Assembly: GCA_022496805.1 (NCBI GenBank)
Contig: CM040089.1
Coordinates: 34,518,372 to 34,582,371 of the forward strand
Direction: 5' to 3'
DNA length: 64,000 nt
From: Pohlia nutans
Taxonomy: Eukaryota > Streptophyta > Bryopsida > Bryales > Mniaceae
Shown here: piece after piece, positions 5,074-56,831 of the stretch
Numbering within the stretch: position 1 is the stretch's first letter
Layout of the letters: every line of letters starts with the position of its first letter
The notes under the pieces: model-generated
What the model saw: the letters and a program-made list of their open reading frames with translations, nothing else
Databases searched by the model: none
What the model was told of the DNA's origin: nothing
Position numbers and translations under genes: made by a program

Positions 5074-5450
5074 TTATCCCCTAAATGATAGAGGGAGAAA
5101 GGACAAAACCTAGATGTGTTATAAAATGTTAATTATGCAACTTTGATGAAGTTTGGTCCAAAAGAGATAATGAGAAGCATGATGTTTAGTAATTATCCAT
5201 ATGGTCAAACTTCCAAAAAAAAGTTTTAGATATTCATTTAATGTATTAAGAAGCATTTATCGTTGAATATTCACCAAAATCACATTTTTTATTTTTAGAA
5301 TTTGAAATTTGGTATGATTGGTTAAAACTAAACATTCTATTCTAAAATTGAAAAAGGAAATTTTTTCAAATGAGAGAACACCATCACTTTCCCGAAATAG
5401 TAAGTTTTATAACACTAGGTCAATATTGAGGTGTTTGTTTTTGAATACAA
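5074..5450 (+). mobile_element. TTAA element G, copy 1 (left part)
   Basis: Starts TTATCCCCTAAATGATAGAG (target decayed from TTAA to TTAT). It continues with AAACCTAGATGTGTTATAAA and AACTTTGATGAAGTTTGGTC, shared with copies at 14.5 and 48.7 kb. Homology fades near 5450 and the right terminus is not identified, although a matching end (GGCATTTAGGGGCTAA) lies at 6593-6611. Confidence 0.6.
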
Positions 5451-6615
5451 TAGATAGTTTTTGTATACGTGTAAAATGTCCAACCATGAATTGAGATTAT
5501 TTGGAGTATTTATCTAATTATTATGATTTGTTTTGCATTATAGATCTCAAAAATTATATTAAATTCATTTTAGTTTCAAAATTTCTGAAAAAAAATAGAA
5601 TAAAAAATAGAATGAAAAGAAGACATATAGGCTCATTTATTAAAAATGTTTCAAAAATAAATTTACAAAATTTTAATTGAAAAATTCCTCATAACAGGGA
5701 AGGTTTGACCATTCTGCCAAGGATCTGGTCCTCAATGGGTAAATGAGAATTGTGCTATGTGTCCTCAGTGTGGAGGATGATGCAGAAAAGAGGGATCCAC
5801 AAATAGACAGAATCAAGAAGCCTCTTTTTGCTCCCACAGTGAGAATTGAGAATCCAGGAGTTGCTCTCAATTTGAACACCTAATTAAAACAGGGTCCTTT
5901 ATATGGACACCAAGACAATCTTTGATGATGAGTACATATTGAAATTCGATATATTTATATATATTTATATATATATATATTATATATATATATATATATA
6001 TATATATATATATATATATATATATATATATATATATATATTCCATTAATTTAAGTGAAGTCGTACTAGGAAAACAATCGAAACTGAATTTACTAGGTCT
6101 TTCCATTCTATAAAAGCTTCCATTTTGATAAATAAATTTCCAAAGTTTTGAGTTGTTGAATGCGCACCAAATCCATTCTTTGAAGTTGAACGCAAATGAA
6201 AGTTGTAGATGATGACTTTTCCATGACATCCATTCGGTTGGATTAAGTAATAGTGTCGAAATATGTTTTAATTATATGAAAAATATAAAAATAATCATTA
6301 TCTTATGAATTTTGGAATGACTGGTCAAAAGTGCATAATGTATGGTATATAATTTTAAATTATCTTTTGCATAATATGCAATATTTCATGCTATAAAATT
6401 ATCTCTTGATTATTTCTAAAAAGATCTCAAGACACCATCTTTCAAACTATAATAAAACTTATGTGAACAACTTCATGACTATCAAAGCTTAATGATTTCA
6501 GCCAATCATAATGAATTACAAGATAAGAGTATTAAAATTATAATTTTAGTGAATTTTCAAAGTTTTTTCTTGTGAGTTCATTTGAAAAATATCTAGGCAT
6601 TTAGGGGCTAAGAGG
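5451..6615. other. AT-rich DNA with a TA microsatellite
   Basis: Contains a (TA)n tract at about 5949-6041. The long open frames over it are microsatellite artefacts. No gene seen. Confidence 0.5.
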
Positions 6616-7162
6616 TTAACCTCTAAATGTCCTCACCCTATCCAGATTGAACAATTTTGCAAAGATGCATTATAAAATGCGAATAAGAGGGATATTTTGA
6701 ACTTGATGTATGAATAAAAGTTGTACATTATGAATTTTAGATTCTATCCATATGGTTAAATCTATGATTGCAACCACCAATATTTTTGTATAAAACTTGA
6801 AACTTAAAACTCAAAATTCTTTAGTAATATGATTACGAATAAGGTATTGGCAATCTATGGATGAAATTTGTTGTGATGGGTTGAAATGTAATACTCTAAG
6901 TGTAGTGATTTTAGGAGATTTTTTGGTTGTTTAATTTTAGGAGTTGATTTTTTCGAAATTTTTGGTGAATCTCAACATGAAATGGGGCATAAAATTTTCA
7001 CAAATCATCCCCTGTGTAGTCAGATCACACATACATGAAGCTAACTTCCCATAAAATATACAGTAAAAAACCCATTTTGCAAAAAGTGCATGACAGTTGA
7101 GTAAACTCTGATTGTTTTTGTACATCGTCTTAAATATGGACATTTGGTCCTTTAGGGGTTAA
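6616..7162 (+). mobile_element. TTAA element A, copy 1
   Basis: Starts TTAACCTCTAAATGTCC and ends GGTCCTTTAGGGGTTAA, with TTAA at both ends. The interior is shared with copies at 12.1, 46.5 and 49.4 kb (+) and at 41.8 and 56.6 kb (-): GGGATATTTTGAACTTGATG, AAAGTTGTACATTATGAATT, GTTGAAATGTAATACTCTAA, ATGAAGCTAACTTCCCATAA. Length 547 bp, non-coding. Confidence 0.85.
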
Positions 7163-53902: not shown

Positions 53903-55818
53903 ACTGCCTTGACAAAATGTGTGGAAAAAATTGTAATGTATTTGCCCTCATAGATTGCAAGATTATAGCGGTAGAAGTAAAAGAAAATATTTTTTAACAA
54001 CTTGCACAACAAGGTCATTGGACTTTGACTTAACTTTGTAAAGAAGTTGAACCTACTTAACTTTGAGGTTTTTGACCTTCATGTATATAGTTAGATTAAA
54101 AAAATTGTGTGCTAATTTTCAAAAATAGTTGGAGCATATTATAGGAGGAATTTAATCATCTTGCACTAAAAGGATGTTCGAAAAAAGACTACAACATGCA
54201 AGATTTTGACTTTCCTTTTGGGAACTCAAATTTTGGAAGAATCACAATCCTAGCAGTGATTACAAACCTAACCCCCTTCAAAATTATTTACAGAAGAAAT
54301 TGACCAAAAAAAATCAAAAAATCAAAACCTTACACTAGAATCTAACCTACTAGTTTAAAAATTGATTCAAAATTTCCATTTATAGTTCATTGACCAAACA
54401 GACAAAAACAAAATTTAACTTCACTTTCAAGTATAGATTTTTATACTAAAATACTATACAAATGTATGGAAAAAAGTAGCACATTTTCTTTGATGAGTTG
54501 ATGGATGTCAAGATATTAGCGGTCAAAATGAAGACAAATGGGTTGAAATTGTTTTTCATAGCTTGCCTAAGAGCTCAACTCCTCTATTAGCATCGTAACA
54601 TGAGTTGCTATTAGAATTTGAGGCTCCATAACTTTTGAGTCTATTGCCCAATGCAAAAAATTATAAATAAATAAATTCATGAAGCTTATACAAGCTTTTA
54701 TATTTGGTATTTCTTTTGAAAAATGCCATTCAAAATTGATTTTAAAATAACCTATCCAAATTTCCAATTGTCCCTATCGGGAACAATTGTCCTATGAGGT
54801 TTAAATTCAACTCAAAAATAATGTTAATTAGACATCCACTCGAAACATTTGGATTCATATTGAGCATAAAAAATTTCAATAACATAATACAATAGAGTTA
54901 GAAAAATCGTCATGTTTGTACAAACAATACTCTTGCTTGAGTGCTAAAAATTCTAATTTGATGTTTATGGCTTTTTAAATGCTCATTACTTATACATAAT
55001 GTTATGCAATTTCATGCATGCCTTTCCTCTTTATATACCTCACACAACACAAGATACCCTACACTTGAGTTAGTTGAGACAAATCAATTATGGCATTATA
55101 AGATTTGTTTGAGCCTCTTGAAAAATGATGTGGAAATTGAATTTAGAAAAAGTTATGTCCTAATAACCCAAAAGTACAATAATACTTGAACTTTTTTATA
55201 TTAATTTATTGATTTTCTTAAACAAGTTTGACGTTTATTGATTGCTAAAGGGTGGTGCTGAAAGTTTGAAACTCTACATCTTGGGAATTTGTACCTAAAA
55301 ATTGGAGCACTAAAACTAAAAGTATGAAAATTACTAGAATTAGAGTATAGAATTTTAGAGCATTATTTATTCAAAAAGCATTCTACAGGGGCCAAGAACT
55401 CCTCTAAATTTCTAATAATAGTATTTATCTTTTACACCTAGAAAGTTGTCAAAATAAATGATAAGTTACTTTTTGGTTTTGCACATAAAGATATTTGCTA
55501 TTGGTTGAAAGTATATATAGTGAGTTGCATTAGTGGCCTAAAGAGCAAATGCATTTGTCATTGTGAAGGTCACATTACCAGCCTTAGCAACAATGAATTA
55601 GGCTCCAGCTCACTAAAACAATTTATTCAAATGGCAAAAGTGAAACTTTCACAATAAAAGGAGCCAAATATACAATGACTTCACATCCAAAGTCAATGGC
55701 AATTAATGAGTCTCACCGAAAATTGTGGTGCATGACACCAATGCTTGAATGTGGACTTGAAAAAATAAAAGAGAAGCTACAATGATGCATCATTCATGAA
55801 GATTTAGATTTGCAAGCA
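53903..55818. other. AT-rich intergenic DNA, nothing assigned
   Basis: Short ORFs only; no repeat termini recognised. Confidence 0.35.
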
Positions 55819-56556
55819 TTAACTTTTAAATGCCTAGGAGGTCAAAATTTGGTTTATGAATGTAATTCAATATTCAATTCCAATTGCTATATGGATGAGT
55901 TCCGTCCAATTATTTTGGAGAAGGATTATGCTTGGTAATGCCACCTCTTTAAATTAAATTCAGACTATTCAAGCTATTTTTGGATTTTACATGGGGTCCC
56001 AAATACAAAAGGAGTTGTAAAAACTGTTCACCATGTAGTGTATTTTGGATTTTTAAACTTTTTTTGCTTATAATAAATTTAGCCATGGAAACAAGTTCTA
56101 TTTCATTTGAGCTTAATCAAAAAAATGAAGCTGGCTAAATCTAGTTTCTACTCCACTTTGAATTTTTGAAAAACCCTGAAAATTGAGTTTTTTTCTTTGA
56201 GTTACAAGTTTAGTGGGTATTACCACGGTGTAGCAAAAAAAAAATCTAAATCTAGATACACGGATAATTTTCATTTAGTGAACTTTTCTTCATTGTAATT
56301 TGCACCTTGGGTAAAAAATTGGAATTTTTTAGTACATTTTGTAATTTATATGGATTTTCTACACAATCACTTAAAAAATTCATAGTAATTTCAAATTTTC
56401 ACCAAATTTTATGAAAAATTCATGATTTGTAGTAGACACATGTTTTCATTTACTAAAAATATAAAATTGGATACTTGCCTTATTTATAGTGTCAAAATCG
56501 AGTGTGACATGTAAAGCATGATTCCATAGTTATAGGCCCAGGCATTTAGGGGTTAA
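55819..56556 (+). mobile_element. TTAA element I, copy 1
   Basis: TTAACTTTTAAATGCCTAGG at the left, CCCAGGCATTTAGGGGTTAA at the right. 738 bp. Shares its right TTAA (56553-56556) with element A copy 6. Confidence 0.8.
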
Positions 56557-56831
56557 TCCCTAATTGCCCAACCGTCCATTTTTTGGACGATGTACAAATT
56601 TCATCCACGATTTTTTATGTGCCATGCACTTTTTGCAAGAATATTGGAGAACTTTTTACAAAATATTGGTGATAGAACTTGTAGATCTAACCGTATGGAT
56701 AGAATCTAAAATTTATAATACACAACTTTTATTGATTCATCAAGTTCAAAATACCCTTCTTAGTTGCATTTTATAATGCATCTTTGCAAAACTGCCCAAT
56801 TTGTAGAGGGGTGAGGATGTTTAAGGGTTTA
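56553..56831 (-). mobile_element. TTAA element A, copy 6 (internally deleted)
   Basis: TTAATCCCTAATTGCCC then CGTCCATTTTTTGGACGATG at the left, GAGGATGTTTAAGGG-TTTA at the right. Both ends of A are kept but about 290 bp of the interior is missing, joining AGAATATTGGAGAAC to ACAAAATATTGGTGATAG. Confidence 0.83.

Follow-up and report, generated by a model that had tools for sequence, protein, structure and literature searches.

Transposases of the piggyBac superfamily bind the terminal repeats of their elements, excise them through hairpin ends at TTAA, and reinsert them at another TTAA; the bee and beetle elements are 2.1 to 3.5 kb long. The T. ni element carries a 14-bp terminal inverted repeat (TIR) together with 19-bp subterminal repeats (PMC10140906). 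In plants, piggyBac has been described as occurring only sporadically, red algae being one instance (PMC12732532), and two sources give "plants" as hosts with none named (PMC10813416 and PMC10140906). PiggyBac is among the superfamilies into which angiosperm miniature inverted-repeat transposable elements (MITEs) were sorted by their ends (PMC10004981) and among those present in all groups studied, land plants included (PMC4438587), and repeat tables record one 75-bp PiggyBac fragment in a grass (PMC8319324) and 1230 PiggyBac pieces, 122 kb in total, in a fern (PMC6890710). PiggyBac annotations in plants are therefore not new; a described system comprising transposase, ends, and empty sites was not found in the open-access literature searched, and among the matches listed no paper concerned piggyBac in mosses (most subscription papers and Repbase lay outside this scope). 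Here, we analyzed a 64,000-nucleotide stretch of a 698-Mb moss assembly (contig C5, 34518372 to 34582371; "the window") that holds a series of short, noncoding elements bounded by TTAA. We conclude that these elements are almost certainly nonautonomous derivatives (MITEs) of piggyBac-superfamily DNA transposons native to the moss genome. An earlier inspection of the window had proposed piggyBac-like MITEs (the original prediction), and this reading is supported by the ends of the elements, by four-base empty sites, by a transposase with the same ends, and by its catalytic triad and fold.

Thirteen window elements had TTAA at both outer ends, 11 of them with CC at both tips; the other two deviated by a single base at the right tip (CTCC at 12126-12694 and TCCC at 51972-52547). 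The remaining candidates were degenerate, and the predicted figure of about 20 elements is fair only if these are counted. The perfect ends of 15 and 13 bp that had been claimed were both present: a short MITE at 24015-24257 (plus strand) has the 15-bp repeat CCCTTAAACGACAAT with TTAA on both sides and a relative in locus L023 (89%), and a PB1-type MITE at 40334-40901 (plus strand) has TTAA and the 13-bp perfect terminal repeat CCCCTAAAGGACC. A perfect repeat of 12 bp bounds the A-type MITE at 41812-43356 (minus strand), whose ends, CCCCTAAACGTC, are PB2-like. Terminal repeats of the CCCCTAAA or CCCTTAAA type were found in both window and full-length elements, degenerate cases included, and some ends contained subterminal hairpins. 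Uninterrupted window elements measured 243 to 816 bp. Sorting by blast gave an A type (the elements starting at 6616, 12126, 46457, and 49435 and that at 41812-43356; mutually ∼77 to 85% alike), the PB1 type (40334-40901), CCCTTAAACG types (24015, 32689, and 42057), one type joining 14485, 5074, and 48701, and a separate element at 51160.

Chance pairing was assessed in 20 first-order Markov sequences with the dinucleotide makeup of the window. Pairs of the form TTAA-CC...GG-TTAA matching at 10 or more of 14 positions numbered 13 in the window (not the same 13 as the elements listed above, some pairs being nested combinations) versus 0 to 1 in each Markov sequence. Without the CC requirement, and with at least 12 of 14 positions matching, there were 10 pairs versus 0 to 1. 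The nonrandom part of the signal is the pairing of ends and their common subterminal sequence, not bare TTAACC.

We examined the insertion sites through relatives that lack the insert, as the original prediction had advised. The A-type MITE at 41812-43356 is split at a TTAA by a second MITE at 42049-43019 (minus strand), itself split at a TTAA by a third at 42057-42446 (minus strand; ends CCCTTAAACGTCAA). With the insert removed and one TTAA kept, the A-type element aligned end to end with 12126-12694, 49435-50011, 6616-7162, and L014:1600-2176 (76 to 81%, with indels); the uninterrupted A-type MITE at 12126-12694 (plus strand) shows the empty site of 42049-43019 and reads TTAA once. The second element, treated the same way, aligned over 583 of 585 bases to its insert-free relative in L014 and over 506 bases to that in L010, and two L014 copies read TTAA once at this site. 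At a third insertion, in L032, the joined flanks gave a gap-free junction to five relatives (in L026, L021, L019, and L012 and at window position 15389). One four-base copy thus restored the junction at all three insertions, and duplications of 2 or 3 bp, as in Tc1/mariner or PIF/Harbinger, were not seen.

The window itself contains no transposase, as predicted: tblastn with 20 transposases returned a best expectation value (E) of 0.34, and none of the scored genome matches to PF13843 (DDE_Tnp_1_7) lies within it. Across the genome, 1305 candidates for PF13843 yielded 116 scored matches, all above the cut-off and distributed over 22 contigs, and 78 of the 116 were without stops; none of 14 control genomes was matched. 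Twenty of the 116, hand-picked from several lineages and mostly without stops, were fetched as 10-kb stretches. They formed seven or more groups whose ends are related but distinct; full-length elements spanned 4.4 to 8.6 kb. In L019 and L020, an intact 772-codon transposase frame lies between TTAA and the perfect 13-bp repeat CCCCTAAAGGACC (4435 and 4598 bp, respectively, including both TTAA), and L012 is an 8576-bp element with ends CCCCTAAACGTCC. The search for a DDE_Tnp_1_7 transposase with the same ends, which the original prediction had proposed, was therefore successful in the same genome. CC-type TTAA ends flanked the transposase on both sides at 14 of the 20 loci (a count that takes L029 in place of L009) and on the 3' side only at 6, among them L021 with TTAG; in L017, L022, and L023, the pairing is of the nearest ends, with weak repeats. 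The layout of L019 was also used to predict the ends of five further copies of its lineage: CCCCTAAAGGACC occurred in the correct orientation in 9 of 10 stretches of 400 to 700 bases (8 with TTAA and 1 with CTAA; a stretch of L050 was without it).

Two observations concern the architecture of individual loci. In the L013 element (1216-7124, reverse complement), frames of 415 and 406 codons precede the 551-codon transposase frame and are either exons or extra genes. L009 and L010 (C17, 26.32 and 26.36 Mb) are PB2-type transposons in opposite orientation, 98.8% identical and ∼32 kb apart.

The ends of several window MITEs could be related to those of particular transposons. The right end of 40334-40901 has 35 bp in common with the left end of L019/L020, hairpin included. 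The left end of L012, with its hairpin CGTCCA...TGGACG, matched the A-type ends at 41812 and 50011 better than 100 of 100 interior shuffles; the latter belongs to the MITE at 49435-50011 (plus strand; 96% identity to L014:1600-2176), whose right-end hairpin is that of this PB2 full-length element. The TTAACCCTTTAACG end of the second nested MITE (42049-43019) resembles the right ends adjoining the L016 and L018 transposases. When the 51 window TTAACC sites were compared with 12 full-length ends, 12 sites had scores reached by at most 3 of 100 interior shuffles. The suggestion that one trans-acting enzyme mobilizes several passengers calls for revision as to a single enzyme, given at least seven transposase groups and window elements that match different ones; movement of the passengers in trans would fit the ends that they have in common with the transposons.

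The proteins encoded between these ends belong to the piggyBac family by sequence, fold, and catalytic residues. A moss transposase matched PF13843 with an E of 2e-79, and the best PDB profile match was piggyBat (7e-80; T. ni piggyBac, 3e-67), the alignment extending to residue 574 of 578 of piggyBat. The predicted fold matched T. ni piggyBac (6x67; E of 2.6e-25, template modeling score 0.74 by target and 0.47 by query) and piggyBat (9c0f; 3e-25), with Tn5 as the next best other fold (4.7e-07). Predicted without an alignment, the fold had a mean predicted local distance difference test score of 32; alignment A1 comprised 45 chosen sequences. The N-terminal part, about residues 1 to 241 of 772, was of low predicted order. 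The aspartate triad (DDD) was conserved in most rows (D434 in 52, D521 in 47, and D638 in 43 of 54), and the alignment to 6x67 places these residues on T. ni D268, D346, and D447 (numbers counted along the alignment), the catalytic residues of that enzyme. The 20 open reading frames compared carry a C-x2-C...C-x2-C...C...H pattern within their final 95 residues, L020 being without one Cys. A midpoint-rooted tree of 49 rows set the 20 moss sequences, together with 25 database proteins from unnamed hosts, apart from four other database rows, including the snail Nucella, and placed the moss sequences in three supported branches; a long-branch warning applies to the joined L013 and L025 groups, and five fragmentary proteins (P0024, P0026, P0028, P0029, and P0030) were left out.

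Compared with T. ni piggyBac, the moss elements have in common the DDD fold, the C-terminal Cys/His domain, the TTAA target, and a short CCC-ended terminal repeat; they differ in identity (23% in the fold alignment), in length (4.4 to 8.6 kb versus 2.47 kb), in their long low-order N-terminal part, and in the subterminal hairpins of some ends. piggyBat, the best profile match and also a fold match, is 22% identical and comes from a bat host (PMC12732532). Greater similarity was seen to many piggyBac-type proteins from public metagenome and archive assemblies (P0001 to P0030, P0155, and others), which have the motifs TIDEMMIRYKG and MRGVDVADQL in common with the moss transposases, are up to 68 and 72% identical to them, and have the L019-L021 group among them in the tree; unlike the moss set, they are known as proteins from unnamed hosts. 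No named plant protein occurred among the 34 matches for L019 or the best 120 of 182 for L009. Angiosperm PiggyBac MITEs were likewise assigned by TIR and target site duplication (PMC10004981), but they are described there as sorted by ends, whereas the moss adds a matching transposase and uninterrupted relatives.

To gauge the extent of the family, we followed the MITE at 40334-40901 through the genome. At least 40 copies, including that of the window, are spread over 11 contigs (there were 2960 candidates, of which 40 were scored); they are 93 to 100% identical, 100% being the window copy itself, and 36 of 40 match the whole of positions 1 to 568, from TTAA to TTAA. Tabulation of the terminal four bases, another check that had been proposed, showed that of the 20 copies fetched (ranks 2 to 21 of 40), 18 have TTAA at the left end and 18 at the right end. 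The other ends read ATAA on both sides (L031), TGAA on the left (L046), and CTAA on the right (L044); L031 (C4:23897203-23897927) is perhaps an insertion into a nonstandard target. For the 21 copies at the top of the list, including the window copy, the mean pairwise Kimura two-parameter (K2P) distance was 0.042, with a minimum of 0.018. The window elements are short and noncoding, with ends in common with an autonomous element, and multiple copies were counted for this one type. Among the transposons, L025 and L026 lie in different flanks, with TTAA on both sides, and are 99.4% identical across 5 kb, and L019 and L020 were 97.5% identical over 4.2 kb, suggesting recent movement.

By analogy with the known piggyBac mechanism, the full-length relatives elsewhere on the contigs would supply a DDD transposase with a C-terminal Cys/His domain that binds the CCC-ended repeats and subterminal sequence. 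The element would be cut out via hairpin ends at TTAA and pasted into another TTAA, leaving TTAA on either side of each copy and a single TTAA at the empty site. The transposases are probably expressed and active, and the common ends suggest that they move the MITEs in trans.

Several observations weigh against this interpretation. Bare TTAACC was not enriched in the window (24 sites on one strand and 27 on the other, versus 14 to 31 and 16 to 26 in Markov sequences), and the perfect terminal repeat is just 0 to 2 bp in the elements at 6616, 12126, 32689, 42049, and 51972. A bare TTAACC is expected by chance roughly once in 2.5 kb, so that a lone 3' end next to a transposase carries little weight unless other copies have it too. 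Most of the remaining TTAACC sites in the window have no counterpart among the fetched full-length ends, and no transposase with ends matching the 24015-24257 or 42057-42446 type was found in that set. The left end of 40334-40901 agrees with the full-length right end over 14 bp only; farther in, the match does not surpass that of shuffled sequences (21 of 100 score at least as high). In its longer alignment to L019, the MITE is 71% identical over 222 bp, indicating that L019/L020 are relatives of the source of this MITE, not the source itself. At the first nested site, relatives besides 12126-12694 have drifted, and those of the L032 site read TTGA. All empty sites are paralogous relatives, mostly of 75 to 86% identity with indels elsewhere, and hence are a better guide to how long the duplication is than to its ancestral letters. 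Stops interrupt 38 of the 116 scored transposase matches, and L028 has Asn at the second Asp.

Another superfamily with an A/T target (PIF/Harbinger at TAA/TTA, Tc1/mariner at TA, or Sola3) could have produced these elements, with TTAA being incidental. TTAA contains TA, TTA, and TAA, so that the flank alone cannot discriminate superfamilies, and Sola3 also uses TTAA. Moreover, Tourist (TAA/TTA) and Stowaway (TA) are the example plant MITEs in PMC10004981. Nevertheless, we consider such an origin very improbable: one TTAA gave the gap-free junction with the five L032 relatives and the alignments across both nested sites, and the same-ended transposase is piggyBac by profile, triad, and fold. 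No Harbinger or mariner transposase was seen between the same ends, although no search was aimed at either. The transposons might instead be foreign DNA from animal, fungal, or algal contamination of the assembly, as most descriptions of piggyBac come from animals, fungi, and protists (PMC12732532) and the database matches with an organism name are animals (Nucella, Leptopilina, and Littorina). However, transposase matches lie on 22 large contigs, and MITEs with these ends are interspersed with plant genes in the window and occur on 11 contigs, making contamination the most remote of the alternatives.

A more serious challenge concerns age. The elements could be true piggyBac relics, old and dead, with MITEs and transposases decaying alike, as the divergence of the A-type MITEs and the interrupted transposases would suggest. 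We regard this as unlikely, since two-thirds of the scored matches (the 78 of 116) lack stops, the L019/L020 and L025/L026 pairs are nearly identical in different flanks, and the 21 top-listed copies of the 40334 MITE are separated by small K2P distances. A diverse piggyBac population with MITEs was probably active recently in this moss. We lean, with little to spare, toward the broader view that the piggyBac elements of mosses are ancient, native, and mobile to this day, with several deep transposase lineages, full-length elements of 4.4 to 8.6 kb, and perhaps thousands of MITEs, first-look candidates for the 40334 type alone numbering 2960.

On that broader view, the moss would provide a land-plant piggyBac system traced all the way from transposase to empty site. 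Abundant intact moss copies would extend the piggyBac host range to land plants, with proof at the sequence level, and raise the question of whether moss piggyBac was inherited from algal ancestors or gained by transfer. Plant-native enzymes would stand beside the animal-derived piggyBac for marker excision in plants, a use named in a title cited in PMC12732532. The copy number makes the moss suited to watching the diversification of passengers with common ends.

The remaining window elements vary in preservation. Two further A-type MITEs lie on the plus strand, at 6616-7162 (TTAA on both sides, terminal repeats degenerate) and 46457-47067, and a shortened A-type copy at 56553-56829 (minus strand) matches only the two outer parts of 49435-50011. 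The MITE at 14485-15266 (plus strand) has terminal bases matching at 14 of 16 positions, and its first 230 bp also occur in L012, L026, and L019 (87 to 88%); that at 32689-33104 (minus strand) is kin of the CCCTTAAACGTCAA type. The MITE at 51160-51975 (plus strand; ends CCCCTAAGCGTCC and CCCCTAAAGGTCC) has an 87% full-length relative at L026:1693-2507, and its right TTAA is also the left TTAA of a degenerate element at 51972-52547 (plus strand; ends CCTCTAAAGGACCA and TCCCTAAAGGACCA). A degenerate element at 5074-6611 (no strand assigned) has the 10-bp repeat CCCCTAAATG with TTAT and CTAA in place of TTAA, and the left part of an element at 48701-49400 (plus strand) has a TTAACCCCTAAATGAC end and 374 bp 84% like 5074-5445. 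Other degenerate stretches are at 25000-25480 and 56549-56831.

Genes in the window include an APC1 C-terminal domain, an F-box protein, and parts of TOC159. A TOC159 protein assembled by hand from window exons matched two Physcomitrium patens proteins at 83 and 82% identity, with 62% of the query aligned, and grouped with them (support 100/99) in a tree of 24 rows, with 23 hand-chosen homologues; this one gene tree is the basis for regarding the host as a moss. A NAM-domain search of the genome scored 62 of its 64 candidates as matches; most genes contribute two exons, hence about 32 NAC genes, and many of these are paired across contigs C1/C2, C3/C4, C11/C12, C13/C14, and C17/C18, and a genome duplication in the moss is likely. 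An Rfam scan of the window returned nothing at gathering scores. A 1.4-kb foldback region at 37168-38560 consists of nested inverted repeats of ∼100 to 140 nt (74 to 95% complementary), with GCCGGCGGCTGAACCCTAAA at some joints, and is either an element of a different kind or a hairpin locus. Long inverted repeats at 34597-35207, 31329-31658, and 20362-20773, with arms of 78 to 103 nt that are 80 to 94% complementary, are perhaps foldback elements of other families.

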